In this document: positions 911-57,145 of the stretch, one piece after another | Layout of the letters: each line of letters opens with the position of its first letter | Position numbering within the stretch: position 1 is the first letter of the stretch | From: Diplonema papillatum | Taxonomy: Eukaryota; Euglenozoa; Diplonemea; Diplonemida; Diplonemidae | Direction of reading: 5' to 3' | Assembly: GCA_030068145.1 (NCBI GenBank) | Contig: JAPJBO010000454.1 | Span: 62,001 to 126,000, forward strand | DNA: 64,000 nt | Made by a program: the position numbers and the translations under genes | Notes under the pieces: model-generated | The model's input: the letters and a program-made list of their open reading frames with translations, nothing else | Database searches by the model: none | What the model was told of the DNA's origin: nothing

Positions 911-1481
911 GAAGCCGAAGGCTGACGAAGCGGCCGACGTCGCGTCGCCGCAGTCGAAGGCATCGGACCACTCGGACAGCACTACCGGGACCGACAGCCG
1001 CCCGCTGGCTGAGATAGCCGAGAAGGGGTTGCCCATCTCCGAGCACCCGCCGTCGACGTTCTACAGGAACCTGAAGTGGCACTTCCAAGACCTGCAGATC
1101 CTGCTCGGGAGCGATCAACTCGTCATGCAGCAGGAGAACGGAAGCGAGGTTGCGTTGAAGCTGCAGGATGTGGAGCAACCGATCACGCGTACTGACGCCC
1201 TCGAGTACTGGCTGGACAACGTCATGAACAACGTGCCGCAGGTGGCCATCTGCTACCACAGGGACGGTGTCACCCAGGGGTACCAGCTGATCAACACGCA
1301 AGACATCCCGACCTTCCGCAAAGAGGCCTCTTTCGAGCCGCACATCGTGCAGGAGTACGCGGGCAACGTCCTGCACTGGCTCAAGGAGAACTGCACCCGG
1401 GAAGCCGGCAGCTACATCCTGTTGCGCGAGGGCAGAAATCGGCTGCAGCTCTACGACATCAGCGCCATGTACGAGAACCTG
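911..1481 (+). CDS. EDRF1: EDRF1-like, first exon in window
   Basis: Acceptor ...TATTCCAG at 910 follows a C-rich tract; donor GTGTGT at 1482; ends in phase 0. It encodes a Ser/Asp/Thr-rich leader and then the EDRF1 signature block (residues ~45-190 of this piece). The reading frame stays open a little upstream of 911, but there is no in-frame ATG there. Confidence 0.85.
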
Positions 1482-4400
1482 GTGTGTGTCCCCTTGCAAA
1501 CAGGAAACCAGAAAGAGCGCCAAGCCGGCAGCCGCTGCTTAGCGGTACGTGCATGCTGATCCATGTGGTCCATGTACTTAAAAAGTCCCAGTGCTTAACG
1601 ACTCTATCACGTGGGCGGCCCTGAGATTGCCCCCCTCACTGTTTTATCTCCCCCCGGCTCTCCACCACAGGACAATCAGGACAAGCAAGCAAGTCGCTCA
1701 GAAGCTGGAACTAGTTCGTCGCGCCAACTGGCCATTAGCGATGGTACGTTCACCCCAATCCTCCCCTTTTTCTTCCACGTGTGTCTCGGTTGGGGAACAA
1801 AAGCATAGGCGCAGTGTGTTCGTTTGAACGCGCCGAACAATTTTACACCGAATTTTGGACAAAATTCTGGACCAAAATTCTGAACCAATTCTGGACCAAA
1901 TTCTGGACCGGTCCAGAATTTAGGTCCAGAATTTGGTCCAGAATTTGGTCCTCAGAATTCAGTCCAAAATGTTGGTCCAGAAAGTTGGTCCATAATTTTG
2001 GTCCAGAATTTTGTCCAAAATTCTGGACCTACATTCTGGACCTACATTCTGGACTAAATTCTGAGCAAATTCTGGACCAAATTCCGGACCAAATTCTGGA
2101 CCAAATTCTGAACCAATCTGGACCAAAACTTTCCCCCCCGGATCCAACACACACCATACACCTCATTCAACAGCCGCATCGGCGAAGAAGACAGCGCGCC
2201 CCTTTGCTTACCCCGTCGCGATGCTGTGCCTGCGCATGGGCGGGTGCATCGCGCACACGGAGCAGGCGGACAAGGCGGTGACCCTGCTGAACAAGGCCCT
2301 CGACCTACTGCCGCCCGACACGGAGCCCACGCCTACTTGGCCCGGCGATGGTACGCCAAGGGCAAGGCTTGGACCAAACCTGGACCAATTTCGGGGACCA
2401 AATCCTGGATCAATTTCTGGACCAAGTTCTGGACCAAATTCTGGACCAAATTCTGGACCAAATTCTGGACCAAATTCTGGACCAAATCTGGACCAAAACC
2501 TTCCCCCGCGGATCCAACACACACCATACACTTCATTCAACAGCCGCATCAGCGAAGAAGACAGCGCGCCCCTTTGCTTACCCCGTCGCGATGCTGTGCC
2601 TGCGCATGGGCGGGTGCATCGCGCACACGGAGCAGGCGGACAAGGCGGTGACCCTGCTGAACAAGGCCCTCGACCTACTGCCGCCCGACACGGAGCCAGT
2701 GGTGAAGGCGCAGGCCCACGCCTACTTGGCCCGGCGACGGTACGCCAAGGGCAAGGCTTGGACCAAACCTGGACCAATTTTTGGACCAATTTTTTGGACC
2801 AATTTTTGGACCAATTTTTGGACCAATTTTTGGACCAATTTTTGGACCAATTTTTGGACCAATTTTTGGACCAATTTTTGGACCAATTTTTGGACCAATT
2901 TCTGGACCAATAATTTCTGGACCAATTTCTGGACCAATTTCTGGACCAATTTCTGGACCAAATCCTGGACCAAATCCTGGATCAATTCCTGGACCAAGTT
3001 CTGGACCAAATTCTGGACCAAATCTGGACCAATTTTTGCACCAAGTTCTGGACCAAATTCTGAACCAATCTGGACCAAAACCTTCCCCCGCGGATCCAAC
3101 ACACACCATACACGTCATTCAACAGCCGCATCAGCGAAGAAGACAGCGCGCCCCTTTGCTTACCCCGTCGCGATGCTGTGCCTGCGCATGGGCGGGTGCA
3201 TCGCGCACACGGAGCAGGCGGACAAGGCGGTGACCCTGCTGAACAAGGCCCTCGACCTACTGCCGCCCGACACGGAGCCAGTGGTGAAGGCGCAGGCCCA
3301 CGCCTACTTGGCCCGGCGACGGTACGCCAAGGGCAAGGTTTGGACCAAACCTGGACCAATTTTTGGACCAATTTTTGGACCAATTTTTGGACCAATTTTT
3401 GGACCAATTTTTGGACCAATTTTTGGACCAATTTTTGGACCAATTTTTGGGCCAATTTTTTTGGACCAATTTTTTTGGACCAATTTTTGGACCAATTTTG
3501 GACCAATTTTGGACCAATTTTTGGACCAATTTTTGGACCAATTTTTGGACCAATTTTTGGACCAATTTTTGGACCAATTTTTGGACCAATTTTTGGACCA
3601 ATTTTTGGACCAATTTTTGGACCAATTTTTGGACCAATTTCTGGACCAATTTCTGGACCAATTTCTGGACCAAATCCTGGACCAAATCCTGGACCAAATC
3701 CTGGATCAATTTCTGGATCAATTTCTGGACCAAGTTCTGGACCAAGTTCTGGACCAAGTTCTGGACCAATTTCTGGACCAAATTCTGGACCAAATTCTGG
3801 ACCAAATTCTGGACCAAATTCTGGACCAAATTCTGGACCAAATTCTGGACCAATTTCTGGACCAATTTCTGGACCAATTTCTGGACCAATTTCTGGACCA
3901 AATTCTGGACCAATTTCTGGACCAAATCTGGACCAATTTTTTTTTGACACCAAGTTCTGCACCAAATTCTTAACCAAGTCTGGACCAAAAACTTCCCCTC
4001 CGGATCCAACACACACCATACACCTCATTCAACAGCCGCATCGGCGAAGAAGACAGCGCGCCCCTTTGCTTACCCCGTCGCGATGCTGTGCCTGCGCATG
4101 GGCGGGTGCATCGCGCACACGGAGCAGGCGGACAAGGCGGTGACCCTGCTGAACAAGGCCCTCGACCTACTGCCGCCCGACACGGAGCCAGTGGTGAAGG
4201 CGCAGGCCCACGCCTACTTGGCCACCGCCGAGGTCGCCCGGCGGCGGTACGCCAAGGGCGAGGCGAAGGAGGACCCGGCGGCGGAGAAGGGGAAGAAGGG
4301 CAAACCGCACCCCGCGCAGCAGCAGCCGTCCGTCGCCGTCGAGAAGAAGGCGCTCGAGTGCAGCAAGGAAGAGCTCAAAAAGGCAGTCGGCGTCCTTCGC

Positions 4401-7400
4401 GACCACGGCCTCCACTTCCCCGAAGAAGTCGGCTTGCGGGAGCGACTGATCCACTGCCACATCGGCCTCGCTGTCGTCTCCGCCGCCGCCGACGACATAG
4501 GCGAGTGCCTGCGCTGGGTGACCGAAGCGGAGGGTTACATCCAGCAGTCCCGCCTTGCCGACAACTCTCGCCGGCCAAAAGCGATCGTCGGCGGGCAGAC
4601 CCCCACACCCGAGTCGGAAGCCGCGGCCGGCGGAGAGGTCCCAGCCGCGTCGGGGACGAAAGCAGCCGCGGCGGAGCACAAGCGGGGGTACCCGGACGAG
4701 CCGTACCTGGTGCAAGCCATCGCGAGGCTGCTCGAGACGCTGGGCGACGTCCACCAGGCCCTCGTCATGCGCCTCCTCTCTTCGTCCAACGGTTTGCATT
4801 TTTCTCTCTTCCGTGGTGGTGGTGGTGGGTACCAGGGAAAGCCTGCTACACTGGAACCAAGCTTCACGTGTTCGGCGGTACTGCAGAAGCACGGGCCCAC
4901 GGGTCAAGTGGCTACCGATTTCCCAAACTAAAGCATCAAGGCGTGGCGCACCTTGGGGCTTGGCGCTCGCGCTGAATGCAAGCTCATCGAGACGGTCAGC
5001 TTGTGGTGCGGTCAAAACGTACCTACTTTGACAGTCACCCGGAGAGACTTTTTGAAATCCCGAAAAGAGCAACTCTACCAAAACGCGCAGAGAAGCCGGA
5101 TCTCTCGGAGCTGCAAGCGAAGCTGGACAGCCACAAGGCGTCGTTTTTGCGGAACTGCACGCCGCTGAGCACAGTGGTCAACGAGAACGTGGACCGCGCC
5201 CTCAGCTTCTACAACTTGTCGTTGAAGCACGTCGCGAAGCTGGCGGAGAGCAAGTGCACACCCGCCGGGATAGAAGTGACGTACAGCAGCCAGGGCGAGC
5301 TGCCGATGAAGCTCAGGAAGATGTACAACATGAGTGCGACGAGCCTGATGCGGAAGAACCGACTCAGCAAGGCGCATCAGCCCTCAACAACATCTTCCTC
5401 GAAGAAGACTTGATGCTAACATGAAAGCAAGCATGAGAGGACAGTAACGAAGATTCCCCCCCGTACTCCTTAGTATCCGCTCAAAAAGCTTTTCACTCTA
5501 AAAAGAACCCATTCGACAACGGTCACCCGGAGACTTTTGGAATCCCGAAAATAGGAGGCAACCTCTAACTCCACCAAAACGCGCAGAGAAGCCGGATCTC
5601 TCGGAGCTGCAAGCGAAGCTGGACAGCCACCTGGAGAAGGACAGCCTCAAGGCGTCGTTTTTGCGGAACTGCACGCCGCTGAGCACGGTGGTCGACGAGA
5701 ACGTGGACCGCGCTCTCATGTTCTACAACTTGTCGTTGAAGCACGTCGCGAAGCTGGCGGAGAGCAAGTGCACACCCGCCGGGATAGAAGTGACGTACAG
5801 CAGCCAGGGCGAGCTGCTGATGAAGCTCGGGAAGATGTACAATTTGAGTGCGACGAGTTTGATGCGAGAGAACCGACTGAGCAAGGCGCACCAGCACTTG
5901 CTCCAGGCGAAGAATTGGTTCGAGCACGTGTCGGAGCCGGCGGCCTGCGTGCCGATGGCAACGGCGCTGCTGAACATAGGCAAGCTGATGCAGCGAATGG
6001 CGTCCGCCGACGCGTCGAAGCGGGCGGGTGTCGAATTCTCGCCGCAGGAGGAAAAGTACTTCAACGAAGCCATCTCGCACTACCACGCGGCGGCCAACAC
6101 GCTCACCCCGTCGAAGACGGCGAACGCCGGGCTGTACAACGACGCCTTGACTCTCTCCGCGAAGGCGCAGCTCCACCTCGGAATCCGGATCAAGGCCAAC
6201 CTCGTCAAGCTCTCCGCCGATGCGACGATCGACTACGAGAAACGCGCTACCGACCTGTTCCTCTCCGCCCTCAAAACCTTCCAGACCCTGCGCGACGAGG
6301 CGAGCGAAGCCGAAACATACGCGCATGTCGGGCAGTTGTCCGGCATCGCGCTGCAGACCGATTACGGCGCGCGGAAGGGCGCCAAGAAGCAGGACTCGGC
6401 CGCGAAGGCGGAACTGCGGCTCAAGAGCGCGGAAGGGTACTACAACAAGGCCATCGATTATTACGCGAACAAGAAAGACGACTGCATGTACCTCAAGCTC
6501 AAGCGCGAGGTCGCGCGCCTGCACCTCTTCCAGCGTATGATTTTTCTTTTACATAAGCGCCAGCTTGGAAGGAAATGCTCGACGATGCTGCCCGACAAAG
6601 AACAGAAGGGAACCCAAGTGCTGCAACTACCGAACCACGTGTTGAACGGACGTGAGGTCATGCGGGTCTACCCCGACACGACAAATCACACGAACACAAC
6701 AGGTCAAAGTCCTGAGTGAGAAAGCAACAAACGGTGGTGTAAGCGAAGAACAAATCAGATTGTGTTTGTATTGTATTTGCCCCTTACCTCTATATTTCCT
6801 CCCTTCCATTCGGAGTCGAAGCAGCAACGTCGGGTATTTTTGTAGAAGCACCTGCTTTGTAGGGAATACTTGAGGAGGCTGCCAGCTGCAAAAGATCAAA
6901 GGAGGTACATGTGCTGTAGCCCACACGAAACACAGGTGAATCTGGGTTCAGTGGCGGGCGTAAGCGTTCAACAAAAAAGACCCAATTTGTAGTTGTATCG
7001 TTTCTCCCCCTCTAGCCTCCTTCGAAGTAAGCACAAGGCAGCCCCTCGAGTATTTTGAAAGAGAAAAGCGCGGGGGCCCAAGACTAAATTCCGAAGGACC
7101 GAAAGTCCCCGTCCAAAGGACCCACTGAGGAGCTCTAACTTTGGATTGGTATGCGTTCAAGAGCGAAACCAGAGACAAAGAACGAGGTGCACACATCACC
7201 GCGGTGAAAAAAAAGAATACAGAGGAATAGTCCCTCAAGGTTCCAGACCCTAGTATGAGGCATTTGTGGGGAGTCACAGGGGTACCTCAGGGGCCTTCCG
7301 AGTAGGTCATTGCGACCATGGGGGGGCGATATATGCGAGTACCGAATCCTTGTTGTCGTCAACACGGTAACCACAACACTGCCACCTCGTTCACTTTGCA

Positions 7401-10400: not shown

Positions 10401-11726
10401 GATGTTCACCTTGCACTACACGTTCCAAGTGAAAGGTTCGAAGAATGGTTGAGGCGCAGCTCTTGATGGATGGAGGCACGGTTAACTTCACTTGTTGTTT
10501 GTGCGATTTAACCTACACACCTGGGTTCTGGTTAAACCGGTTCTTTTTAGCTGTAACAAATACTGTCTCCAGGGAAGCAGAAATTGGTAGTCGGAAAAAA
10601 TTTCGACCGAAAATTTTCGACCAAAATTTTTGACCAAAATTTTTTGACTAAAAATTTTGACCAAAAATTTTCGACCAAAAATTTTGACCAAAATTTTTTG
10701 ACCAAAAATTTTCGACCAAAAAATTTGACCAAAAAATTTCGACCAAAATTTTTTGACCAAAAATTTTGACCAGAACTTTTCGACCAAAAATTTTGACCAA
10801 AAATTTTCGACTAAAATTTTTGACCAAACATTTTGACCAAAATTTTGACCAAACATTTTGACCAAAAATTTGGACCCAAATTCTGGGTCCAAATTTTGGA
10901 CCCAAATTTTGGACCCAAAACCGAACCGAAAACCGACCCCGAAACCGAACCTTCCAGAATTAAATCTGAAAACCGAACCCAAAACCGACCCCAAAACCGA
11001 CCCCAAAACCGAACCTTCCAGAATTAAATCTGAAAACCGAACCCGAAACCGACCCCAAAACCGACCCCAAAACCGAACCTTCCAGAATTAAATCTGAAAA
11101 CCGAACCCGAAACCGACCCCAAAACCGACCCCAAAACCGAACCTTCCAGAATTAGATTTGGAAACCGAACCCGAAACCGACCCCAAAACCGAACCCTTCC
11201 AGAAATAAAACACCCCCCCCCCCAGTAACAACGGTCACACCCTAACCCCCGGGAAGTTCGAACACTCCCCTTTTTACAACTTTCTATTTTCTATTCTTGC
11301 GTCCCTTTCCTAGACGACATCTTCCTCGAAGAAGACTTGATGCATATCATCAACCATGCATGAGAGGCAGTGCTCTGCCCAAACATTAAACTAAGATTTA
11401 CCCCCGGGAAGTTCGAGCGAACTTTACCTCTATAAACCCTACAGGTGTTTGAGAAGGACGCCGACACCTTCACCGCCGAACTCAGCAACCTGCGAACGTT
11501 GATCACCGACACGCTGAAGGAAGGAGTCATGCTCTACGCAAACAGCGCGCCGCAAACAACGCCGAAGCGCAAACTGGACAAGAGTGCACAAGCCCGGCTG
11601 AACCCGTTAGACCAGACGAAGGAGCTGTACGCGAAGGCGTTGGACCTCGGCAGCAAAAAGCTGACGAACGAAGACCTCGTCCAGATCATCGAATCGATGG
11701 GCAAGCTGCACCTCCGGGAGGCGTGA
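911..11726 (+). CDS. EDRF1: EDRF1-like TPR protein (C-terminal ~905 residues, six exons)
   Basis: Spliced gene: 911-1481, 1671-1743, 4036-4791, 5587-6534, 9158-9246, 11445-11726. All five junctions are GT-AG and phase-consistent (0,1,1,1,0). The first exon carries the hallmark EDRF1 block: Tyr-Trp-Leu-Asp-Asn followed by a conserved run ending in a Leu-Tyr-Asp motif. Later exons carry the Pro-Val-Ala-(Met)-Leu segment, a TPR-like helix pair, and a Phe-Ser-Pro-(Gln)-Glu-Glu ... Tyr-(Phe)-Asn-(Glu)-Ala-Ile-(Ser)-(His)-Tyr segment that follows human EDRF1 order. EDRF1 is known as an erythroid differentiation-related nuclear factor in vertebrates; its role outside animals is unclear, so only the family is claimed. 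The human protein is about 1240 residues; here roughly 250-330 N-terminal residues are missing, because no in-frame ATG precedes the conserved block and position 911 looks like an acceptor. Introns are full of arrays, SINE-like repeats and partial exon copies. Confidence 0.85.
1671..1743 (+). CDS. EDRF1: EDRF1-like, small exon 2
   Basis: A 73-nt exon between TCCACCACAG and GTACGT. It enters in phase 0, leaves in phase 1, and encodes a short Gln/Ser-rich linker. The human protein also has a low-complexity linker near here, which fits. Confidence 0.7.
2174..2366 (+). pseudogene. partial copy 1 of EDRF1-like exon 3
   Basis: Nearly identical to the 5' part of the exon at 4036, including the ...TTCAACAG acceptor. 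It lacks two internal pieces: one around the Val-Val-Lys-Ala-Gln segment and 15 nt coding Thr-Ala-Glu-Val-Ala. It then runs straight into the GGACCA array with no clear donor. Interpreted as a truncated tandem duplicate. Confidence 0.85.
2544..2756 (+). pseudogene. partial copy 2 of EDRF1-like exon 3
   Basis: Retains the acceptor and about 210 nt of the exon, with the same 15-nt in-frame deletion as copies 1 and 3. The frame remains open into the following array and no convincing donor is present. Confidence 0.85.
3126..3338 (+). pseudogene. partial copy 3 of EDRF1-like exon 3
   Basis: Same structure as copy 2, with an identical breakpoint after the Ala-Lys-Gly codons. Here the breakpoint reads AAGGTTTGG, which creates a weak donor-like GT not present in copy 2. 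The shared breakpoint and shared deletion imply the copies arose from one another, not independently. Confidence 0.85.
4036..4791 (+). CDS. EDRF1: EDRF1-like, exon 3 (intact copy)
   Basis: Acceptor TTCAACAG, donor GTTTGC, phase 1 in and out. It encodes the TPR-like segment beginning after the Pro-Val-Ala motif, a Lys/Pro-rich loop, and a helical region ending in Leu-Leu-Ser-Ser-Ser-Asn. It is the fourth and only full-length copy of this exon in the region. Confidence 0.85.
4830..5012 (+). repeat. dispersed repeat family B
   Basis: Starts at GGTACCAGGGAAAGCCTGCT; homologous to 9285, 23350 (reverse), 46305 (reverse) and 60545 (reverse). In the reverse copies the other end is preceded by A/GAA-rich tracts. 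Probably a short retroposon; no promoter boxes were recognised. Confidence 0.8.
5029..5380 (+). pseudogene. partial copy of EDRF1-like exon 4
   Basis: Duplicates the end of intron 3 and about 290 nt of the next exon (intact copy at 5587), with the same ACGCGCAG acceptor. It lacks 18 nt coding Leu-Glu-Lys-Asp-Ser-Leu and stops abruptly after the His-Gln codons, joining unrelated repeat sequence with a stop and no donor. If spliced in, it would truncate the protein. Confidence 0.85.
5381..5450 (+). repeat. dispersed repeat with GAAGAAGACTTGATGC core
   Basis: A short repeat also found at about 8345-8420, 11310-11430 and 44400-44480, typically followed by GAGAGGCAGTG and a C-rich tract. It abuts the breakpoint of the exon-4 copy. 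Confidence 0.7.
5587..6534 (+). CDS. EDRF1: EDRF1-like, exon 4
   Basis: A 948-nt exon between ACGCGCAG and GTATGA, phase 1 in and out. It encodes the long helical TPR-like body of EDRF1, including an Asn-(Ile)-Gly-(Lys)-Leu-Met-(Gln)-Arg repeat and two Tyr-(Tyr)-Asn-Lys-Ala-Ile-Asp-Tyr-Tyr-type motifs. This is the best conserved part of the gene after the N-terminal signature. Confidence 0.88.
6545..6835 (-). mobile_element. SINE-like repeat family A, copy 1
   Basis: About 290 bp, beginning on the plus strand at ACATAAGCGCCAGCTTGG. Read on the minus strand it ends in an A-rich tail, as a retroposon would. Other copies are at 38645, 43850, 56655, 57028, 60950 and 63932. It lies only ~10 nt inside intron 4. 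Confidence 0.75.
6840..7065 (+). repeat. dispersed repeat family F, copy 1
   Basis: About 220 bp, from a GAAGCACCTGCTTTGTAGG end to CCCTCGAGTATTTTG. Homologous to 16375-16570 (inverted) and to 8440-8818, where it is interrupted by another element. Confidence 0.75.
7066..8187. other. intron 4 sequence without recognised content
   Basis: Mixed-composition intronic DNA. I see no convincing exon, RNA gene or array. Short matches to other intronic repeats occur near 7990 and 8150 (GAAAGGGTCCCCC, twice). Confidence 0.5.
8188..8325. repeat. palindromic GACAAAGTGGATTAT cluster
   Basis: Several direct and inverted copies of GACAAAGTGGATTAT and its complement within ~140 bp. They could fold into stacked hairpins. 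Possibly a small foldback element; no terminal duplication was identified. Confidence 0.7.
8440..8818 (+). repeat. family F copy interrupted by element E
   Basis: The two halves (8440-8527 and 8755-8818) align to consecutive parts of the family F copy at 6840. The intervening DNA is element E. This is a simple nested insertion. Confidence 0.7.
8528..8754. mobile_element. MITE-like element E, copy 1
   Basis: About 225 bp with inverted GACATTTCCGGAA / TCCGGAAATGTTC ends. A homologous copy lies inverted at 33689. One side extends past the inverted repeat by the palindromic GTACATCTGTAC segment, so that boundary is approximate. Confidence 0.7.
9158..9246 (+). CDS. EDRF1: EDRF1-like, exon 5
   Basis: An 89-nt exon with acceptor CAACGCAG and donor GTATGC. 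It enters in phase 1 and leaves in phase 0, matching both neighbours. It encodes an amphipathic segment rich in Val, Ser and Lys with a Trp. Confidence 0.7.
9285..9355 (+). repeat. repeat family B, truncated copy
   Basis: Only the first ~70 bp of family B (from GGTACCAGGGAAAGCCTGCT), joined directly to repeat family H. Confidence 0.75.
9356..9460 (+). repeat. dispersed repeat family H
   Basis: Contains AACCATGGTTAATTGCGC and GTGTCAGCCGAAGCTG. The same unit is inverted at 19455-19570, followed there by related sequence to about 19600. Confidence 0.7.
9461..10590. other. intron 5 sequence without recognised content
   Basis: Unremarkable intronic DNA with a few short C or A runs. No exon with matching splice sites and codon bias was found between exon 5 and the arrays that start near 10590. 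Confidence 0.5.
10590..10905. repeat. GACCAAAAATTTT array
   Basis: A 12-14-bp unit built on GACCAAAATTTT / TTTTCGACCAAAA, degenerate, about 24 units, grading at its end into GGACCCAAATTT units. It resembles the GGACCAAATTTT array of intron 2 and may share an origin. Confidence 0.9.
10906..11210. repeat. 64-bp tandem array in intron 5
   Basis: About four units, spaced exactly 64 bp (markers at 10951, 11015, 11079, 11143), each made of ACCGACCCCAAA subunits plus CCTTCCAGAATTAAATCTG. The unit contains a branch/acceptor-like CCTTCCAG. Confidence 0.9.
11445..11726 (+). CDS. EDRF1: EDRF1-like, terminal exon 6
   Basis: Acceptor CCCTACAG, phase 0, reading to TGA at 11724. It encodes a C-terminal helical segment with a repeated Ser/Thr-Asn-Glu-Asp-Leu-Val-Gln-type motif. 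Its 3' end is duplicated just downstream. Confidence 0.85.
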   Translation: MFEKDADTFTAELSNLRTLITDTLKEGVMLYANSAPQTTPKRKLDKSAQARLNPLDQTKELYAKALDLGSKKLTNEDLVQIIESMGKLHLREA

Positions 11727-11779
11727 GCAGGCATTGGCAGACTTCTCGACCAAAGGCGAAAAAGATGAAAGCCTTACTG

Positions 11780-11910
11780 CAGCGAAAACAACTGACGAGC
11801 GAAGATCTGGTCCAGATCATCGAATTAATGGCAAGCTGAGAGGCGTGAACGAAGCATTTGCAGACTTCTCGACCAAAGGCGAAAAAGATGCAAGCCTCAC
11901 TGGTTGCGAA
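11780..11910 (+). pseudogene. partial downstream copy of EDRF1-like last exon
   Basis: Repeats the last ~70 coding nt of exon 6, the stop region and the following ~60 nt (GACTTCTCGACCAAAGGCG occurs at both sites). It carries substitutions and small deletions, so it is an older copy. It has no acceptor of its own. Confidence 0.75.
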
Positions 11911-13059: not shown

Positions 13060-13890
13060 ATATTTGGGTCAACAAATTGCAATGCAGTCTGACATCAACG
13101 GCCTTTGTGGGCAATGCACACGGTCCACGAAACCACCAAGGTCCACGAAAAACATCGTCCAGTTCTCTGTGTCTTCGGCTAATCCGATTGCGTGGGCGAT
13201 AGGGACCGTGTTCTCCTCGCCGTCAAACCCGACAGCACAGAACAAGAGCCCTCCTGTGTGCTTCAGGTGCGCGGCGTCCACGATTACGATCGGACACATA
13301 TGAGGCAGTGCGGCAACACACGCACCGTGCGCGGCGAAGGCGTACTTGAAGCGGCCCGCCTTGTCTTCAACCACGCGGCAGGAAGCCGCCGGGTCCTCTT
13401 TCTCGACGGACGCAAAGTACGACCGTAGCAGGCCGTATGTATCCTCTCCAGCAATGCTGTTCTGATCAACAGCTCGCCTGCGGGCCTGAAGTGCCACGTA
13501 CGTGCTAATGTCGACGGAGAAGTCTGACTTTGCACGCGCCACAATGGCAGCAGAAGATAACTTGGCTCCTGGACGAGCCACGGCTGGATGGTGGTAGCCA
13601 GCCAGTCAGTTTGCAAGCCGAGCACGTGTGTGCTAGACTCGCACTGATGTTGAACACCCCATCCTCGCTTTCTCTAGCGTTGCACTGGAAAGGGCAGGCA
13701 TCACCGCTTTGCACCGCTTTGCACGAGAACAAAACTTTCTCCCGGTGCAGCTCGCGGTGAATGTTGCCCCGGTTCTGCTTGAGGCAAGCCTCAATCACCG
13801 CAGCCTGGAATGCATTTCGCCCTGCAAACGTACATCCAACCGATAGAAGCACGGATGCATCATGCGGGAAGATGGGGAGTTCGGGGGAAG
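13060..13890 (-). pseudogene. MULE transposase fragment (frameshifted, 3'-truncated)
   Basis: On the minus strand, 13890-13600 encodes a MuDR-type N-terminal domain: Val-Gly-Cys-Thr-Phe, then Phe-Ser-Cys-Lys, then Cys-Pro-Phe, then His-Thr-Cys-Ser. After a frameshift near 13590, the stretch 13581-13069 encodes the start of the MULE catalytic domain: Ile-Val-Asp-Ala-Ala-His with the first Asp, Gly-Gly-Leu-Leu-Phe-Cys-Ala-Val-Gly, the Pro-Ile-Ala-His-Ala-Ile segment, and a Met-Ser-Asp motif matching the second Asp. The remainder of the DDE domain is absent, and the frame ends in the TIR. The family cuts DNA at TIRs and usually leaves 8-11-bp duplications, longer than the 4 bp seen at the outer ends. 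Not functional as it stands. Confidence 0.75.
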
Positions 13891-23292: not shown

Positions 23293-26200
23293 GTATGGCT
23301 TCCCTTGTTGCACAACCCGAAGAAGAAGAAGAAGAGAAGAAGAAGAAGAAAAAGGTCGCTCCTGTCCAGGGACGTGACGGTCAACCACAGCTTGCAAAGC
23401 TTGAGTCGGAGGCAGCACAGTGCCACAACCCCGTCCCGCTCTGCCCTGCGGCTGACCGTCTCGACGAGCTTGTGTTCAGCGCGAGCGCCAAGCCCCAAGG
23501 TGCGCCACGCCTTGATGCTTTAGTTTGGGGAATCGGTAGCCACTCGGCCCGTAGGCCCGTGGCTCTGCAGTACCGCCGAACACGTGAAGCTTAGCTCCCG
23601 TGTAGCAGGCTTTCCCTGGCACAACCCGACAGAAAGAAAATTTGTTTTACGTTTATCCATTTTTGGACTCAGAAAATTGACCCAAAATTTGGACCCAAAA
23701 TTCGGACCAAGGGTCATAGTTCGGGGAAAGAATTGGCCAAAACGGCCAAAATCTGAAAGAAATCGCTCAAATTTGCTCAAGATTTGCGAAGTGCAATTCC
23801 CTGCCAAAAGTTGAGGAAACCAATTTCCGACAGGGACTAGTCCTCGTTGCGGGCGCATTGCCCACGGGGACTAGTCCCCTATGACCCAAACCTTTTTGCA
23901 TAACTCCCTTCACGCACCTACATGGACCAGCACATCGACGCGCGTACGTTCGTGAGCGTGCTGGAACGGGTGAAGCTGCTCCGGGGGGAATGGCCGCCGG
24001 AGCAGCGACGGCGCTGCGGAAGCGGGCACAGCTGGCGAAGCCGAAGACGCACTTTGTCCCTTTGAACCTGAAGGAAGCCACCTGGAAGAGGTCGTCGAGC
24101 TCGTGCACCGACTACCGGTCGATGCCGCAGGCATTCCCGGAGTACCAACAGCTGGGGGCATCTCGTCCCCAACATTCGGACCAAGGGTCATAGTTCGGGG
24201 GATAATTGGCCAAAGCGGCCAAAATCTGAAAAAATAGCTCAAATTTGCTCAAGATTGGCAAAGTGCAATTCCCTGCCAAAAGTCGAGGAATACAATTTCC
24301 CACGGGGACTAGTCCCCTATGACCGAAACCTTGTTGTATCACTCCCTTCACGCACCTACAGGGACCAGCACATCGACGCGCGTACGTTCGTGAGCGTGCT
24401 GGAACGGGTGAAGCTGCTCCGGGGGGAATGGCCGCCGGAGCAGTTCGTGGCGCTGGTGCCCGATGCGACGGCGCTGCGGAAGCGGGCGCAGCTGGCGAAG
24501 CCGAAGACGCACTTCGTCCCTTTGAACCTGAAGGAGGCCCTCGAGATGGAGGAGCGCCTGCACCACCCGGAAGAAGTCGTCGAGCTGCCGGTCAAGCCGG
24601 CCGTGCCGTACACAGATTACCGGTCGATGCCGCAGGCATCCCCGGAGTACCAGCAGCTGGGGGCATCTCATCCCGACGCCACTCGTTTGTCGTACCTTGC
24701 GGCCGCCGATGGGCTACAACCGCTCCCCGACATCACCGGCCCCCTTGCTTTAACGGCTGATCCGAGTACCGCCCCTTTGCTCCCTCATCAACAGCCGCAG
24801 CTCCAACAGCACCAGCAGCAGCCGACCGCTGCTGGTGCAGCCTTCGACAACGCGCCGCCGCGCCGCTTCGTCGGTGCGGTCGACATGCCGGCCAGCCCGG
24901 CCTCGTCGCGGCCGCTGCTGCCCGCGGGGGTGCAGAGCCCGCCGCCGCACGCCGTGGTGGCGTCGCCGTTGCAAGGCTACCAGTTGTCTGCCATCGCCTC
25001 GGCGCCGCCGACGCACATCGTGGTCCCTTCGTCCGTTGCCGCTCGGGACAATGAGCCGGCTTGGATACCGCAAATGGTGTGTCTCTGTGTGTGTGTGTGT
25101 GTGTGTGTGTTACGGACCGTCTCGACTCTGAAAATCCCGGATTCTCAAGCGACCTTTCACTCTGAAGATTCTAAAACGAACTTGCACTCTGAAAATCCTG
25201 GACTCTCAAGCGAACTTTCACTCTAAAAATCCCGGATTCTGAAGCGAACTTGCACTCTGAAAATCCTGGTCTCTCAAGCGAACTTTCACTCCAAAAATCC
25301 CGGATTCTCAAGCAAACTTGCACTCTGAAAATCCTGGACTCTCAAGCGAACTTTCACTCTAAAAATCACGGATTATCAAGCGAACTTGCACTCTGAAAAT
25401 CCCGGATTATCAAGCAAACTTGCACTCTGAAAATCCTGGTCTCTCAAGCGAACTTTCACTCTAAAAATCCCGGATTCTGAAGCGAACTTGCACTCTGAAA
25501 ATCCTGGACTCTCAAGCGAACTTTCACTCTAAAAATCCCGGATTCTCAAGCGAACTTGCACTCTGAAAATCCTGGACTCTCAAGCGAACTTTCACTCTAA
25601 AAATCCCGGATTATCAAGCGAACTTGCACTCTGAAAATCCCGGATTCTCAAGCAAACTTGCACTCTGAAAATCCTGGACTCTCAAGCGAACTTTCACTCT
25701 GAAAATCCCGGATTCTCAAGCGAACTTGCACTCTGAAAATCCTGGACTCTCAAGCGAACTTTCACTCTAAAAATCCCGGATTCTCAAGCGAACTTGCACT
25801 CTGAAAATCCCGGATTCTCAAGCAAACTTGCACTCTGAAAATCCTGGTCTCTCAAGCGAACTTTCACTCTAAAAATCCCGGATTCTGAAGCGAACTTGCA
25901 CTCTGAAAATCCTGGACTCTCAAGCGAACTTTCACTCTAAAAATCCCGGATTATCAAGCGAACTTGCACTCTGAAAGTCCCGGATTCTCAAGCAAACTTG
26001 CACTCTGAAAATCCTGGTCTCTCAAGCGAACTTTCACTCTGAAAATCCCGGATTCTGAAGCGAACTTGCACTCTGAAAATCCTGGACTCTCAAGCGAACT
26101 TTCACTCTAAAAATCCCGGATTCTCAAGCGAACTTGCACTCTGAAAATCCCGGATTCTCAAGCAAACTTGCACTCTGAAAATCCTGGACTCTCAAGCGAA

Positions 26201-32639: not shown

Positions 32640-32752
32640 CTTTACAGCGTGGCACGCTCCGTGGTTGACAAGTAGCACGTGTCCCCTCTGCGCTTCAGTC
32701 TTTTGCTGGGCCTGTGGGTTCCTTTGATTGGATTGTGCTCGTCTCCGACTCG
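32640..32752 (+). pseudogene. downstream decayed copy of PH-like terminal exon end
   Basis: Repeats the last ~65 coding nt and the first ~30 nt after the stop (AGCACGTGTCCCCTCTGCGC and TGATTGGATTGTGCTCG), with substitutions that break the frame. Confidence 0.75.
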
Positions 32753-32839
32753 TTGGCTTGCGCATCTTCTCTCTTTAGCGAATCTGGCCGTCGGAGGCTG
32801 CGTGATGGAAGGTGGCCTGAGACCGGATAAGCGTCTGAC

Positions 32840-37727: not shown

Positions 37728-39772
37728 GTGTGCGCCCTTTTGCCCATGATTCTGCGGGAGTTTCTGCTCTTCGTCTTGTCTGACGAGAACTGCCTAGAAG
37801 AGTTTCTGCTCTTCGAGCATCGATCGAATTGATCTTTGCACCGCCACGTTCTCATTCAAATCTGATCAACTCGATCGACAGTGATCAGCAAGCTAGTCAT
37901 CGTCGAATCGAGAGTCGAACGCAGTCTGAGAGATTAGATTTTCAAGCGATACTCAACCGCTGATGGAGCATGGACGAACCCAGCCTGCTAATGCGTTCGA
38001 CGGCCTGATGAGTCTCATGCTTCTACAATTTGCGTACCTGAGCCATTCCGTCCCTATCTCTTGAAACTGCATCAAAGTGCCTGCCGCTGTTTATCACACG
38101 GTCTATCAGGTCCATCCCTAGTCCCTAGAGCTGCATCGAATTGCCCGGCGCTGTATTCTTCGGTCTATCACGGTCTATCAAGAGGGGATGGACCGGCTCA
38201 GTACCCGCCGCCATCCTTAGATGTGGTGGCCCTTATTGCAGGCTCCTCTCCGGGATCGAGGCGGGTCGTGGCAGGCACGCAGCTGCTCGGCTATAGCCAG
38301 AGCTCCGGTAGTGCTATAGCCAGAGCTCCGGTATTGTGCACCAAGGGCCATCGCCACAGATATTCTGCATTCCGAGCTCTCAACCTAACCAAAACACCAC
38401 AGTCGTTCCTCCAGTTCGACCGCGACCGGTCTGGTGGTCTTGACATCTCCGAAGTCTACCAAGCACTTACGTCCGCCGGCTTCAACCTTGACCAACATTC
38501 GTTCTACGCTGCTATCAAAGTATGCGATTGATGATATCTTCACCCCGTACGCTTATCCTTTCATCCCGTGCCCAAAAGCGGCATCATATCCATCGACAGT
38601 GTGCACGATGCCTTCGTCTTCAATAGCCGCCGCGTTGAACCCGCTGTTTTTACATAAGCGCCAGCTTGGAAGGAAATGCTCGACGATGCTGCCCGACAAA
38701 GAACAGAAGGGATCCCAAGTGCTGCAACTACCGAACCACGTGTTGAACGGACGTGAGGTCATGCGGGTCTACCCCTACACGACAAATCACACAAACACAA
38801 CAGGTCGAAGTCCTGAGTGAGAAAGCAACACACGGTGGTGTAAGCGAAGAACAAATCAGATTGTGTTTTTGTGTTGTATTTGCCCCTTACCTCCCTATAT
38901 TTCCCCCCTTTCATTCGGAGTCGACGCAGCAACGTCGAGTATTTTCTTGCGTAAACGTCGCAGGGTACCCCGTTTTCTGTGGTAGCCGCCTCTCCCTGGA
39001 TCGTATTTGGGCCACTTTGGCACCCACACGGTCAACCTGTGCAGCCGTTTTTTACAGAGACTGGGCTAGGAGTTACGTTCAGGGGCTAAATCCTGAACAC
39101 CTGGAAAACTAGTTCAGGAGGAATCGAACCGCGGTTGAATGGGATAGTAGTCCGACGTCCTAACCACCTGACCAAGAGCCCCCCCCTATTGCTGTATTCC
39201 ATGAACAACAAACAGGCTTACGACCCCGATCAGAACGGGACGATGTCTGCAACAGAGTACGTCGGGCTGTGTGCCTTCCTGCAGATTGCGACCAACACCT
39301 TCCAATCGTTCGACACGCAGGTATCCGCCGCCTTTTCCTTCATAACAGAATGTGAGGGTACTACTCTTTCTACACAGTAGATGATTCACAACGAAAGCAA
39401 ACGGCAACCCCGCTTTCGCCCGAGCCTGACAACAAGCTACAAACGCACATCAGCAGCTGCGATCGTCTTCCTGTCCCAACGAAAGACCTACAGTCGGTAT
39501 CCGACCTAGAACCCTTTAGAATGCCATACTACGACACTCAATCCATATTAGCGCTTTAAAAGAACCCATTTGACGACGGCCACACGAAGACTCTAAAATT
39601 CCGGATTCTCAAGCGAACTTTAACTATAAAAAAGGAGTTCCGGCGGGCTTCATTTGCTTCACGTCGGCAGGCGACATTGCCCCGACACCAACAAAACCAA
39701 TAGCCACAGCATATGGGATCGGTCAACATGAACCTCAACCAGTTCATCTACGCAGCTGCGCAGTGCAAGTAG
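37458..39772 (+). CDS. penta-EF-hand (PEF) protein, 184 aa, four exons
   Basis: Exons 37458-37727, 38403-38519, 39216-39320 and 39710-39772; every junction is GT-AG in phase 0. The product is 184 residues, typical of the ALG-2/sorcin/peflin family. Five EF-hands: residues 30-41 (Asp-Arg-Asp-Arg-Ser-Gly...Glu), 66-77 (Asp-Ser-Asp-Arg-Thr-Gly), 96-107 (Asp-Arg-Asp-Arg-Ser-Gly...Glu), 132-143 (Asp-Pro-Asp-Gln-Asn-Gly...Glu) and a degenerate fifth near 162-173 that in this family serves dimerisation. A short Gln/Tyr/Pro-rich N-terminus replaces the long Gly/Pro tail of peflin. PEF proteins are cytosolic Ca2+ sensors that move to membranes and bind ESCRT/COPII partners; that role here is inference. 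Which PEF subfamily this is cannot be decided. Confidence 0.92.
38403..38519 (+). CDS. PEF exon 2
   Basis: Acceptor AACACCACAG, donor GTATGC, 39 codons with EF-hand 3. Confidence 0.92.
38645..38940 (-). mobile_element. SINE-like repeat family A, copy 2
   Basis: About 97% like the copy at 6545 over its whole length, again inside an intron close to the donor and antisense to the gene, with the A-rich end on the minus strand. Confidence 0.78.
39112..39186 (-). tRNA. tRNA-like pseudogene (minus strand)
   Basis: On the minus strand an A-box-like TTGGTCAGGTGGTTAGGACG and a B-box-like CGGTTCGATTCC are spaced as in a tRNA, with a 7-nt loop that could present ACT. The acceptor stem does not pair and the anticodon stem has mismatches, so it is a relic or tRNA-derived SINE, not a working tRNA. 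Confidence 0.35.
39216..39320 (+). CDS. PEF exon 3
   Basis: Acceptor CAACAAACAG, donor GTATCC, 35 codons with EF-hand 4 and the start of EF-hand 5. Confidence 0.92.
39710..39772 (+). CDS. PEF terminal exon 4
   Basis: Acceptor TAGCCACAG, phase 0; 20 codons then TAG. It encodes the last EF-hand half and the C-terminus ending Ala-Gln-Cys-Lys. An in-frame TAG at 39701 excludes an earlier acceptor. Confidence 0.9.
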   Translation, partial: HMGSVNMNLNQFIYAAAQCK

Positions 39773-39841
39773 TCCAGCCTGCCGACGTTACAACACTCAA
39801 TACGTATTAGCTTGAAAAGAACCCATTTTACGAAGGCCGCG

Positions 39842-40650
39842 CTCATCTACGCAGCTGCGCAGTGCAAGTAGTCCAGCCTGCCGACGTTACAACACTCAGC
39901 TTCAAAAGAACCCATTTTACGAAGGCCGCGCTCATCTACGCAGCTGCGCAGTGCAAGTAGTCCAGCCTGCCGACGTTACGACACTCAGCTTCAAAAGAAC
40001 CCATTTTACGAAGGCCGCGCTCATCTACGCAGCTGCGCAGTGCAAGTAGTCCAGCCTGCCGACGTTACAACACTCAGCTTCAAAAGAACCCATTTTACGA
40101 AGGCCGCGCTCATCTACGCAGCTGCGCAGTGCAAGTAGTCCAGCCTGCCGACGTTACGACACTCAGCTTCAAAAGAACCCATTTTACGAAGGCCGCGCTC
40201 ATCTACGCAGCTGCGCAGTGCAAGTAGTCCAGCCTGCCGACGTTACGACACTCAGCTTCAAAAGAACCCATTTTACGAAGGCCGCGCTCATCTACGCAGC
40301 TGCGCAGTGCAAGTAGTCCAGCCTGCCGACGTTACGACACTCAGCTTCAAAAGAACCCATTTTACGAAGGCCGCGCTCATCTACGCAGCTGCGCAGTGCA
40401 AGTAGTCCAGCCTGCCGACGTTACGACACTCAGCTTCAAAAGAACCCATTTTACGAAGGCCGCGCTCATCTACGCAGCTGCGCAGTGCAAGTAGTCCAGC
40501 CTGCCGACGTTACGACACTCAGCTTCAAAAGAACCCATTTTACGAAGGCCGCGCTCATCTACGCAGCTGCGCAGTGCAAGTAGTCCAGCCTGCCGACGTT
40601 ACGACACTCAGCTTCAAAAGAACCCATTTTACGAAGGCCGCGCGAAGACT
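39842..40650 (+). repeat. nine-unit 89-bp array made from the PEF terminal exon
   Basis: Units start at 39842, 39931, 40020, 40109, 40198, 40287, 40376, 40465 and 40554, exactly 89 bp apart. Each holds the last 9 PEF codons plus stop (TCATCTACGCAGCTGCGCAG...) and then ~57 bp ending CATTTTACGAAGGCCGCG. Units differ by about one base. There is no acceptor within a unit apart from the exonic CGCAG. Confidence 0.97.
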
Positions 40651-40735
40651 CTAAAATCCCGGATTCTCAAGCGAACTGTAACTCTCAAAAAGGATATACT
40701 GGCGGGCTTCATCTGCTTCAAACCAAAAACCACAG

Positions 40736-40798
40736 CATATGGGATCGGTCAACATGAACCTCAACCAGTTCATCTACGCAGCTGCGCAGTGCAAGTAG
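40736..40798 (+). CDS. second, complete copy of the PEF terminal exon
   Basis: An identical 63-nt exon with the same ACCACAG acceptor and ~20 nt of matching intron, placed beyond the 89-bp array. It could be used as an alternative last exon giving the same protein with a different 3' UTR. Whether it is used is unknown. Confidence 0.6.
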   Translation, partial: HMGSVNMNLNQFIYAAAQCK

Positions 40799-47130: not shown

Positions 47131-47139
47131 GAGACATCA

Positions 47140-47326: not shown

Positions 47327-47510
47327 GTACTTTATTGGTGGCTTGCCGTGGCTACCCTTGAAGGAAAGCGGCTCCGGGTTCTGCCCGGAAACACCTTGGG
47401 TGGAAAGAAGCGGGAGGGAGTTTGATCACATCAGAGAGTAAGAAAGAACGCAAGGGAGAGAGAGCAAAACCGTCTGTAGGGTGGCGGGCTTGCCTCGTTC
47501 ATCTTCGACG

Positions 47511-53704: not shown

Positions 53705-53778
53705 CAGTGCGAAGAGAAGTGAGGAGACCGGAAACTCCCCGGAGAGATGGTCCCTGCACTCTAACTCGTCTCTCTCTC

Positions 53779-54072
53779 TCCATCTTTCGTCAGGTCGAAC
53801 GGAGGGGGAAACGCGGCGGAATGGGCGAAAACATGTTGAAAACGGCTCACTACGCCTTGTTGCTCTTGCTCCTCGGCTGGCTGTGGGGCGTCGAAGGGGT
53901 CTGCCCGGTGTTGTCGAGCCTGTCCGACCCGGCGGCGCTGTGCGCCGCGATGCGGGCGGCGCCGTGCCTGTCGTGGGCGGGCGGCGCGGGGCCCCGGATC
54001 GACTACAACATCAGCTGCACGATTCCCGGCGACTCGCAGTTCGAGCTGACGTGCGCCGTCGAGGCGGCATGA
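53779..54072 (+). pseudogene. truncated upstream copy of the secreted-protein gene
   Basis: Carries the same 5' leader, ATG (53821) and signal peptide as 54623 with one Val-to-Leu change. It deletes ~40 nt after the Leu-Thr-Cys-Ala codons and stops at TGA after 83 residues, running into MITE-C-like sequence. It could encode a short secreted peptide, but its promoter is separated from it by the LINE. Confidence 0.85.
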
Positions 54073-54181
54073 TGTGTCGAACAGCAGCAGGGTCAAACAT
54101 TCATCGTGTTTTCTGACAGCCAGGCGTGCGTCAAAATAGTTCACGCTGCCCTAGCCACTGGAAAAACAGTGTAGTGACTAT
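54073..54181. repeat. MITE family C-like segment between gene copies
   Basis: GTCGAACAGCAGCAGGGTCA and CAGCCAGGCGTGCGTCAAAA resemble the interior of family C (21771). The same segment recurs at 54291-54400, so it is part of the duplicated unit. Confidence 0.6.
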
Positions 54182-54290
54182 ACAACATCAGCTGCACGAT
54201 TCCCGGCGACTCGCAGTTCGAGCTGACGTGCGCCGGCGCCGCGCCGCTGCCGCTCTGGGCGCTCGACGTCCTCGTCGAGGCGGCATGATG
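54182..54290 (+). pseudogene. internal fragment copy of the secreted-protein gene
   Basis: About 105 nt identical to 54808-54905 (TACAACATCAGCTGCACGAT to GACGTCCTCGTCGA), with no start codon. It ends at the same GAGGCGGCATGATG breakpoint as the copy at 53779. Confidence 0.85.
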
Positions 54291-54379
54291 TGTCGATCAG
54301 CAGCGGGGTCAAAATCAAGTATTGATAGTGTTCTCTGACAGCCAGGCGCGTGTCAAAATAACTCACGGTGCCCTAGCCA

Positions 54380-54622
54380 TTGGAAAAACAGTGTAGTGAC
54401 TAGTCATCTTGCTGGTGAAAATGGAGCAGTTGCATTAGTCATATGACCTAGGAAGACCAGTAGTAAATGACTAGTGAATGGCATGACTAGTGTACCGTGG
54501 TGTTCCCTCCCCCCTCCCCTTTACGACTTTACGACTAAAATGCAAGGGACCCTCTCAAACCTATCCTCTGCACCTCTTTATCCATCTTTCGTCAGGTCGA
54601 ACGGAGGGGGAAACGCGGCGGA
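54380..54622 (+). promoter_or_regulatory. 5' flank and leader of the secreted-protein gene
   Basis: Includes an ACTAGT-rich piece related to MITE family K (ending GACTAGTGTACCGTGG), a C-rich tract, and a pyrimidine-rich leader leading to AACGGAGGGGGAAACGCGGC just before the ATG. Conserved with the displaced copy at 47140. Promoter elements cannot be defined from sequence alone. Confidence 0.5.
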
Positions 54623-56395
54623 ATGGGCGAGAACATGTTGAAAACGGCTCACTACGCCTTGTTGCTCTTGGTCCTCGGCTGGCTGTGGGGCGTCGAAGGG
54701 GTCTGCCCGGTGTTGTCGAGCCTGTCCGACCCGGCGGCGCTGTGCGCCGCGATGCGGGCGGCGCCGTGCCTGTCGTGGGCGGGCGGCGCGGGGCCCCGGA
54801 TCGACTACAACATCAGCTGCACGATTCCCGGCGACTCGCAGTTCGAGCTGACGTGCGCCGGCGCAGCGCCGCTGCCGCTCTGGGCGCTCGACGTCCTCGT
54901 CGAAGCCGGTGCGAATTTCACGGTGAAGCGGTGCGCAATTACCCAGTTCGTCCGAATCCACGGCAGCGGCCGCCTTCTGCTGGAAGACGTCACCGTGCGC
55001 GGTGGCCTGTATCTCTCCGGCCTGCCAAACGCGACGCTGGACAGACTCGTCGTCGAAGTCGAACCCGGAGGGCAGTTTTCCGCAGCCGACGCAACCGTCC
55101 ACGCGACTTCGCTGATAGTACGCGGGGTGGGGCAGTCCACGCAGAACTCCGAGGCATGCTTCACCGTCACCAACGCGTCGCTCACCGCCGACACGCTGAA
55201 CGTGTCGGACTGCGCCGCGAGCAACCGGAACCTGCTCGTGCGGGACGGCGCGTTGGAGGTTGCAACCTTCGATCTCCGCAACTGCAACGCGCAATACATG
55301 ACCGCTTTGTTCATGCGGTCGGCGTTGCATTTCACCGAGTGGATTGTTGAAGACATGCGCTCCGCGGGGTTCGCGGTAGCGCAGACCCAGGACTGCCGCA
55401 TCGTCGCCGAAACAGCGTCGTTCAGCCGCTGTTCGGGGTCGATGACGGTGCTTTCGCTGACGGGAAAGAGCTCGGTTTCGTCCTTCGGGATTCTGCTGCT
55501 CGCAGGGAACATCGTTTTCGGCACCGTGCTGGAGATTTCGGCGGGGCATGTCGGCGTGCATGCGCTCGTGTCCCGGTGCAGCGTTCGCGATCGGTCGTCA
55601 CCGTACACGTCGAAGGCGCTGGAAGTGCACTGCCGCAGCGCGAGGATCACGGTTGGGGAGTGGGCAGTGGACCTGAATGACGGAGGCCCCAGCGTTGCGC
55701 TCACCGACTGCCCGGAGCTCCACGAAAACCGCAGCGTCGTCCACGCAGACGCGCCGCATTCCTTCACGGACGCGTTTGCCAACCCCGTCGAGCCTTCGCG
55801 GGGGTTCTGCGGGCACGCCTGCGATGCGAACTACCCAGCAGGGTTCGCGGTCCGCATCGCCTACAGCGTTGATCCCGTCGTGTCCGAGCGTCTCGACTCT
55901 ACCGGCGCGTTTGCTGATGCAGGGTTTCCGCTGTCCCTCGTTAACATCCCGCGGAGTCTGTCGGACGGTGCTGTCGTGCACCAGACCCCGATGGGCAACC
56001 TACTAGGCGGGCAGCGCGTTGAATTCGAATGCTGCCCAGGCAGCCAGCCGTGCGAGTTCTTCGTCAGCCTGTACAGCTGCGCCGGGTGCGCGGAAGCGAG
56101 CGACGGGGGGCTGTGGCCCGGGTTGCTCGAGAACGAAGCTGACTGGCAGAGGGGGCCCTGCGCGCCGTCGTTCAGATACCTCGACGAGGACGTGCTGCAC
56201 CCGATGGCCACGTTCCGGGCCCAGGTCGAGGCTGGGGACAGTCTGGCGCTCGCTGCGGCGACGGACGGACTGCCTTTCGCAGCTTTCGCCCGGAGGATGC
56301 CGCCTGGCAGCTCCCCCCCCAGCTGGTGCCCAAGGACTGTGGCATTCGGGCCTCACATGCCTTCCACGTGCTCCGACCACTGCTTCGTCTATTAG
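54623..56395 (+). CDS. secreted, Cys-rich protein, 590 aa, intronless
   Basis: Clear signal peptide: a short charged start, then Leu-Leu-Leu-Val-Leu-Gly-Trp-Leu-Trp, with likely cleavage after Val-Glu-Gly (~residue 26). The mature chain has many Cys, several Asn-x-Ser/Thr sites, and short alternating hydrophobic repeats from ~80 to ~350 that could form a right-handed parallel beta-helix (pectate-lyase-like fold). The C-terminal ~200 residues form a separate Cys-rich region ending in Cys-x3-Cys-Phe-Val-Tyr. No transmembrane segment follows the signal peptide, so export or wall/surface attachment is likely. No enzyme family or catalytic set was recognised. A paralogous C-terminal fragment is at 32840. 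It is the only multi-hundred-residue host gene here without introns. Confidence 0.82.
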   Translation: MGENMLKTAHYALLLLVLGWLWGVEGVCPVLSSLSDPAALCAAMRAAPCLSWAGGAGPRIDYNISCTIPGDSQFELTCAGAAPLPLWALDVLVEAGANFTVKRCAITQFVRIHGSGRLLLEDVTVRGGLYLSGLPNATLDRLVVEVEPGGQFSAADATVHATSLIVRGVGQSTQNSEACFTVTNASLTADTLNVSDCAASNRNLLVRDGALEVATFDLRNCNAQYMTALFMRSALHFTEWIVEDMRSAGFAVAQTQDCRIVAETASFSRCSGSMTVLSLTGKSSVSSFGILLLAGNIVFGTVLEISAGHVGVHALVSRCSVRDRSSPYTSKALEVHCRSARITVGEWAVDLNDGGPSVALTDCPELHENRSVVHADAPHSFTDAFANPVEPSRGFCGHACDANYPAGFAVRIAYSVDPVVSERLDSTGAFADAGFPLSLVNIPRSLSDGAVVHQTPMGNLLGGQRVEFECCPGSQPCEFFVSLYSCAGCAEASDGGLWPGLLENEADWQRGPCAPSFRYLDEDVLHPMATFRAQVEAGDSLALAAATDGLPFAAFARRMPPGSSPPSWCPRTVAFGPHMPSTCSDHCFVY

Positions 56396-56507: not shown

Positions 56508-56654
56508 CATATTCCTTTTGGAAACGCATCTGCTTCGTGGAGGCAATCCTTGAGGGGACAGCCGGTTGCGAAATCTCAAAGGGGCTAGTGTGGTACTCAT
56601 CGGCATGCCGATGAGTACTCCCCACTATCGCAACAGCATTCCGATCTCAAGGTC

Positions 56655-56770: not shown

Positions 56771-56883
56771 CAGGAATTGGAGCTGGCGTCTTCTGGCCTC
56801 TCGCACTGGCTTGGCTACCTGGGGCTTGTGCTGACCCCTTCCTCCGGTCGGCTCGTGCATCTCCATCTGAAAACAAAGGGTGA

Positions 56884-57027
56884 AACCAACCGACCACTGC
56901 TTCGTCTATTAGCCGGATCGGCTTTGGACTGGTAGACGAAGGACGACCGCCGCATTGCGGGTCTTTAACCGGCCGGTAGATTCGGCCTTTGTAGTTTGCC
57001 TGCGAATGCTGCGTGGCAATCCAGCGT
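56884..57027 (+). pseudogene. downstream copy of the secreted-protein gene 3' end
   Basis: Repeats CCGACCACTGCTTCGTCTAT plus stop and ~110 bp of 3' flank, near-identical to 56373-56505. Both copies are followed by family A. Confidence 0.9.
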
Positions 57028-57145
57028 ATTTCTTTTACATAAGCGCCAGCTCGAAAGGAAATGCTCGCCGATGCTGCCCGACGAAGAACAGAAGGGATCC
57101 CAAGTGCTGTAACTACCGAACCGCGTGTTGAACGGACGTGGTCTG
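57028..57145 (-). mobile_element. SINE-like repeat family A, fragment
   Basis: Starts TTTTACATAAGCGCCAGCTC and contains a 10-nt internal deletion in the GGACGTGAGGTC region. Confidence 0.72.

Follow-up and report, generated by a model that had tools for sequence, protein, structure and literature searches.

In the genes of amphioxus, tandem duplication of intron/exon boundaries has been described under the name of 'mirages' (PMC3087553; PMC3902484). In the portions of these two reports consulted, either the 3' end of an intron and the 5' part of the next exon are repeated upstream of the intact exon, or the 3' boundary of an exon is duplicated; units measure 10-160 bp or so, inner units are alike and the boundary unit is divergent, and the intact gene is kept. 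One of the two reports adds TnC and PGBD5 to the cases (PMC3902484, in the part consulted). In potato, according to sections of the original report, an intron-exon structure copied in tandem gave rise to an additional intron and exon via a cryptic splice signal (PMC4974935), and a review, likewise consulted in part, covers a model of intron gain by tandem duplication (PMC3443670).

We analysed a window of 64,000 nucleotides (positions 62001-126000 of contig C454, in an assembly of 271.4 Mb and 2,910 contigs), whose partial exon copies, judged by their structure, appear to be a further and dense instance of the mirage kind. They also resemble, as duplications inside genes, the internal gene duplications that Gao and Lynch reportedly described in 2009 as common in eukaryotes. 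An earlier note on this DNA had listed extra partial copies of exons in all four host genes and knew of no description of them as a genome habit; the amphioxus mirages, as far as the consulted parts of those reports go, already describe copies of this sort (PMC3087553; PMC3902484). In the open-licence literature, we found no report of them in this kind of genome.

Gene models in the window were drawn by eye from splice sites and open frames, with Pfam matches for EDRF1 and the EF-hand gene and homologues for EDRF1; exon numbering is internal to the window. Each of the 14 exons was compared by blastn with the DNA up to 5 kb away, which gave 22 rows, and the window was also compared with itself. 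The copies listed earlier were recovered by these comparisons, and blastn, direct alignments and tblastn with EDRF1 homologues together confirm them nearly as listed, the copy of the 'PH' exon-3 end alone being weak. The features of the EDRF1-like gene are as follows.

911..1544, plus strand: EDRF1-like exon with the EDRF1_N domain, without local copy (Pfam PF23788, 6e-32; P0002 match; blastn)
2127..2368, plus strand: exon-3 copy 1, acceptor-bearing intron tail and 5' part of the exon, with 19- and 15-bp deletions (alignment, blastn)
2497..2757, plus strand: exon-3 copy 2, with a 15-bp deletion (alignment, blastn)
3077..3338, plus strand: exon-3 copy 3, one substitution in 260 against copy 2 (alignment, blastn)
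3351..3939, plus strand: 12-bp minisatellite, of the type lying between exon-3 units (TRF, period 12, 49 copies)
4036..4791, plus strand: intact exon 3 (P0002 residues 419-654; chain open)
5014..5384, plus strand: exon-4 copy, intron tail and 5' part of the exon (342/367 aligned bases)
5587..6534, plus strand: intact exon 4, TPR region (PF23723, 8e-11; homologue tblastn)
11445..11726, plus strand: last exon (P0002 residues 1008-1096)
11779..11901, plus strand: copy of the 3' end of the last exon and its flank, directly abutting its source at 11650-11778 (107/120 aligned bases)

The joined chain of four exons (803 residues) aligns over 98% of its length, at 45% identity, with P0002, a homologue of 1,098 residues from a transcript collection whose last-exon match lies at 11442-11717 (tblastn). 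A homologue search revealed no N-terminal EDRF1 exons, in the 10 kb upstream of the window either. Exon blastn places the three upstream copies of the exon-3 5' part at 2174-2327 with 2340-2368, 2544-2757 and 3126-3338, a single upstream copy of exon 4 at 5091-5384, and a single downstream copy of the last exon at 11779-11838 (11779-11901 with flank), in agreement with the numbers given earlier. The exon-3 copies are separate tblastn matches, beside the intact exons, for three EDRF1 homologues, P0002, P0003 and P0006 (2122-2352, 2546-2731, 3128-3313), and the exon-4 copy is a separate match for P0002 and P0003 (5111-5374). In each exon-3 unit the intron 3' end, including the acceptor, is followed by roughly the first 195 to 230 exon bases, and the units are spaced by the 12-bp minisatellite. 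A 560-codon open frame (2291-3970) spans two of the copies together with the minisatellite DNA that lies between them and beyond; the 12-bp unit is stop-free in that frame.

Copies 2 and 3 are 1/260 bases apart and have a 15-bp deletion in common; against the intact unit, copy 1 has 6 substitutions and copies 2 and 3 have 7 each. Compared with the intron tail, the exon part of the units is poorer in substitutions (p 0.09, 0.02 and 0.02), which tandem duplication does not explain. Such a pattern speaks for alternative or decoy exons that are functional and under selection, as does the fact that all three copies retain the acceptor and an identical first exon stretch, copy 1 moreover reaching a possible donor after 177 nt, a length divisible by three. 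However, in copies 2 and 3 this donor comes after 196 nt, which would shift the frame, the remaining copies lack one exon edge and several carry out-of-frame deletions, while the transcript-derived P0002 aligns to the chain with each exon used once over 98% of it. We therefore hold a functional role to be highly improbable.

The last exon of the PEF gene is the second place where copies form an array.

39710..39772, plus strand: PEF last exon, proximal complete copy (blastn; splice sites by eye)
39843..40643, plus strand: 89-bp array, its unit made of the final 29 bp of the exon, the 3' flanking DNA and the first part of the following element (TRF 39809-40643, period 89, 9.4 copies, 99%; blastn)
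40736..40798, plus strand: PEF last exon, distal complete copy (63/63, blastn)

The ten downstream copies of the earlier list correspond, by blastn, to nine 29-bp 3' ends and one whole copy (40736-40798). The 89-bp array is bounded on both sides by a complete last exon and the element upstream of it, the layout expected if amplification had crossed the joint between two tandem copies.

The two remaining genes matched no Pfam family, so that their labels, 'PH-like' and 'secreted', lack family support, and for the secreted protein the homologue search returned the protein itself alone; the exon structures of both are accordingly less certain.

23694..24169, plus strand: copied end of the intron with the 5' part of 'PH' exon 2, adjoining the intact unit at 24168 (414/440 aligned bases, several indels)
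24362..25076, plus strand: intact 'PH' exon 2, putative gene label (splice sites by eye; codon model)
31530..31586, plus strand: weak copy of the 'PH' exon-3 end (direct alignment; absent from the blastn rows)
32654..32773, plus strand: copy of the 'PH' exon-4 end (94/110 aligned bases; blastn)
53749..54061, plus strand: 5'-end copy from the secreted-protein gene (302/310 aligned bases)
54181..54402, plus strand: second, nested 5' copy of the secreted-protein gene, abutting 54004-54180 (alignment)
54623..56395, plus strand: intact secreted-protein ORF, an orphan (open frame; homologue search)
56890..57036, plus strand: 3'-end copy from the secreted-protein gene, of which 23 bp are coding, with the 3' flanking DNA (143/147 aligned; blastn)

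Exon blastn found one upstream copy of 'PH' exon 2 (23924-24169) and one downstream copy of the exon-4 end (32655-32723, 78%), both as listed earlier; the 22nd row is an inverted 30-bp match inside exon 2. For the secreted-protein gene, blastn and alignment likewise yield two upstream copies of the 5' end, 53821-54066 and 54181-54281, the latter beginning inside the exon and nested with the former, and one downstream copy of the 3' end, limited to 23 coding bp at 56890-56912 and extending to 57036 with its flank. The claimed copy of the 'PH' exon-3 end stands on a weak direct alignment (51/54 aligned bases, several gaps) some 630 bp downstream; it is not among the 22 rows of the 14-exon blastn (up to 5 kb), and self-comparison of the window reveals an inverted pair at this place (31511-31572/31708-31644). 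Tandem duplication does not explain this copy, at such a distance and with an inverted partner.

By grouping the blastn rows with their flanks by hand, we obtained eight clear units in the window (EDRF1 exons 3, 4 and last; 'PH' exons 2 and 4; PEF last exon; 5' and 3' ends of the secreted-protein gene), the weak 'PH' exon-3 copy being left out. In all eight, the flank crosses an exon edge and the copy lies on the side that matches that edge, and the same match of side and edge holds in 5/5 cases outside the window (L028, L037, L042, L068 and L075). These copies are, very probably, best explained by local head-to-tail duplication that is blind to genes. If a segment running from a to b were duplicated head to tail, the new joint would read b then a, and each old neighbourhood would be kept once. 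With a in an intron and b in the exon, the unit would hold the 5' edge and a partial copy would lie upstream of the whole exon; with a in the exon and b beyond it, the unit would hold the 3' edge and the partial copy would lie downstream. A segment with one breakpoint inside an exon would thus leave the exon whole, with a partial copy on its outer side. At EDRF1 exon 3 and the PEF last exon, units may later have expanded into minisatellites, copies would decay as they suffer small deletions and take up repeats, selection presumably purges duplications that interrupt coding sequence, and splicing would ignore the copies. Because the side of a copy is tied by tandem geometry to the exon edge in the unit, neither selection nor a special machine is needed to account for it. 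Of the shared mechanism proposed earlier, a local duplication process is therefore retained, given direct, local, edge-spanning copies in head-to-tail or array form, but not the idea that it tolerates only outward copies, since in 8/8 and 5/5 instances the edge contained in the unit accounts for the side.

Copy and source abut directly at 11778/11779 (EDRF1 last exon), 24168/24169 ('PH' exon 2) and 54180/54181 (secreted). By eye, a 3-bp CCC is common to both sides at the 'PH' exon-2 junction, and near-matching GCGAAAAC words occur at that of the EDRF1 last exon, which may point to short homology at the junctions. Other units in the window are separated from their source by about 115 bp (exon 4), 144 bp (secreted 5'), 370 bp (secreted 3') and 74 bp ('PH' exon 4), and a dispersed repeat lies inside three of these four spacers; outside the window, the spacers measure 209, 146, 57 and 135 bp at L075, L028, L037 and L068. 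If these units also arose by a tandem event, spacers of 57-370 bp require that insertion, deletion or filler at the joint be added to the model. The spacers found with several copies, like the inverted partner beside 'PH' exon 3, would be more natural if short stretches around exons were template-switched nearby and inserted with filler, selection then removing the copies that land in exons and leaving the 'outward' ones. Yet copies of a 5' edge should then occur on both sides, and all 13 grouped units are concordant, as are 8/8 spaced units (leaving aside L042, the ninth, whose longest copy pair overlaps). Moreover, at distances of up to 1.5 kb, direct repeats take up 30.9% of the window bases and inverted ones 1.0%, the latter being about 30 times rarer. 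As a general explanation template switching is therefore unlikely; for some events, the spacers and the scarcity of substitutions in the exon-derived bases of the exon-3 units leave room for its local action, beside the head-to-tail duplication that we favour.

Long near-identical arrays assemble poorly, and our evidence is the assembled sequence; haplotypes or repeats left uncollapsed or unresolved could thus mimic such copies. But the identities of the units vary from 85.5% to 100%, with distinct deletions and inserted repeats, and similar copies are found on other contigs, so that an assembly artefact is hardly credible.

Compared with mirages, the units at EDRF1 exons 3 and 4, 'PH' exon 2 and the PEF last exon span an intron/exon boundary (for PEF, the acceptor lies in the whole copies), whereas the other units of the window cross a gene end rather than an intron boundary and include start or stop ends with their flanks. 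Head-to-tail repetition is found, as abutting units and arrays, but strictly so only in part, several units being spaced. Homogenised inner units occur in one array only, where exon-3 copies 2 and 3 stand at 1/260 from each other, and the intact unit differs by 6-7 substitutions and a 15-bp gap. In contrast to mirages, some units are separated by the 12-bp minisatellite or by dispersed repeats, and 7/14 exons are touched in a single window. The definition of mirages also includes absence of interference with regular splicing and length instability between haplotypes or cells; the likeness drawn here is one of structural features. The potato case, in the part of its report consulted, is similar in being a tandem intron-exon copy in which the copied exon contains a cryptic 5' splice signal (PMC4974935), but there splicing turns the copy into a new intron and exon, and the window copies are known from DNA alone.

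Does the process target exons? The copies are much more similar than chance would allow, but the density of tandem duplication predicts the number of exons touched. When the map of 14 exons was slid round the window in 250-bp steps (255 shifts), the mean number touched was 6.7, against 7/14 observed, and 54.5% of the shifts reached 7. Duplications take up 19.5% of exon bases versus 37.5% of noncoding bases outside retroelements. The genome-wide question was addressed on a sample of loci rather than on the whole genome: places around kinases, around two dispersed repeats and eight chosen places, with flanks of mostly 1.5 kb. Exons there are predictions of a codon model trained on kinase cores rather than verified exons; this model recovers the main exons of the window, where 2/10 of its predicted segments are retroelement ORFs. 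A local copy was found for 5/69 predicted exons outside the window (70 screened, minus one in L001, which lies inside it), all direct, with the 5' part upstream at L028, L042, L068 and L075 and the 3' part downstream at L037. By a looser count, a local direct repeat touches 8/70 predicted exons, against 14.9 expected from shifting. Tandem duplication is thus general and exons are not its target, since the count in the window equals that of shifted maps and the count outside falls below expectation; the same figures do not support the suggestion of a genome habit directed at exons.

The window is nevertheless richer in copies than the places sampled. In the same screen, 5/10 of its predicted exons have copies, or 5/8 without the two retroelement ORFs, against 5/69 elsewhere, a comparison whose p-values are not unbiased, the window having been chosen for the effect. 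In 6-kb tiles, direct-repeat coverage is 27% in the window versus 9.1% over eight 6-kb pieces hand-picked at round coordinates on larger contigs. In part, then, the count shows the locus to be exceptional, an outcome that the earlier note had itself named as a refutation. A kinase gene, L042 (G000:C229 near 97687-98472), has several decayed upstream copies of an exon start, like EDRF1 exon 3, and is the only one of 30 protein-kinase loci with a copy of the matched core, in a sample of top-scoring single-exon genes that includes two cores shortened by contig ends (L044, L057) and look-alikes (such as L043/L044 and L057/L058). Among 40 Cpn60/TCP1 matches (38/38 candidates scored) there was no partial local copy at the protein level, a comparison of uncalibrated sensitivity that misses short copies; profile overlap between nearby matches never exceeded about 10 positions, except for two whole-gene copies on C50.

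It is conceivable, though we would regard it as doubtful, that parts of this genome are passing through a phase of very active local tandem duplication, with a large share of multi-exon genes bearing 'mirage' edges, from fresh to decayed. If so, they would offer a natural series, outside cephalochordates, in which tandem duplication makes decoy splice sites as well as new introns and exons. Should the density hold for more genes, the locus would be a useful case in which splicing must choose the fourth of four near-identical EDRF1 exon-3 acceptors, and one of intermediate stages in intron gain by tandem duplication. The puzzling pattern of 'outward copies only' becomes a consequence of geometry and background duplication, and shifted exon maps are the null model that such claims need.

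Mobile elements and satellites lie nearby. A dispersed element E of about 85-110 bp occurs at 5493-5547, 31865-31953, 39549-39640, 40608-40700 and 41325-41431 and, on the minus strand, at 8789-8889; a first look at the genome gave 1,504 candidates, of which 40 were scored. It lies within 150 bp upstream of 3/11 acceptors and downstream of 0/10 donors, and is possibly introner-like or a carrier of branch sites. The intron after 'PH' exon 2 (25125-26401) contains a 34-bp-based satellite array made from pieces of the element E tail. Retroelement-like ORFs (LINE, judged by eye) occupy 47442-53701, and sequence near the 3' end of this element recurs at 22514-22751 (90%), each of the two lying just upstream of a gene start. 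A minus-strand ORF at 13072-13605 resembles, by eye, a fragment of a MULE-type transposase, and a 13-bp satellite extends over 61065-63227 (TRF, 166.5 copies, 99% matches).
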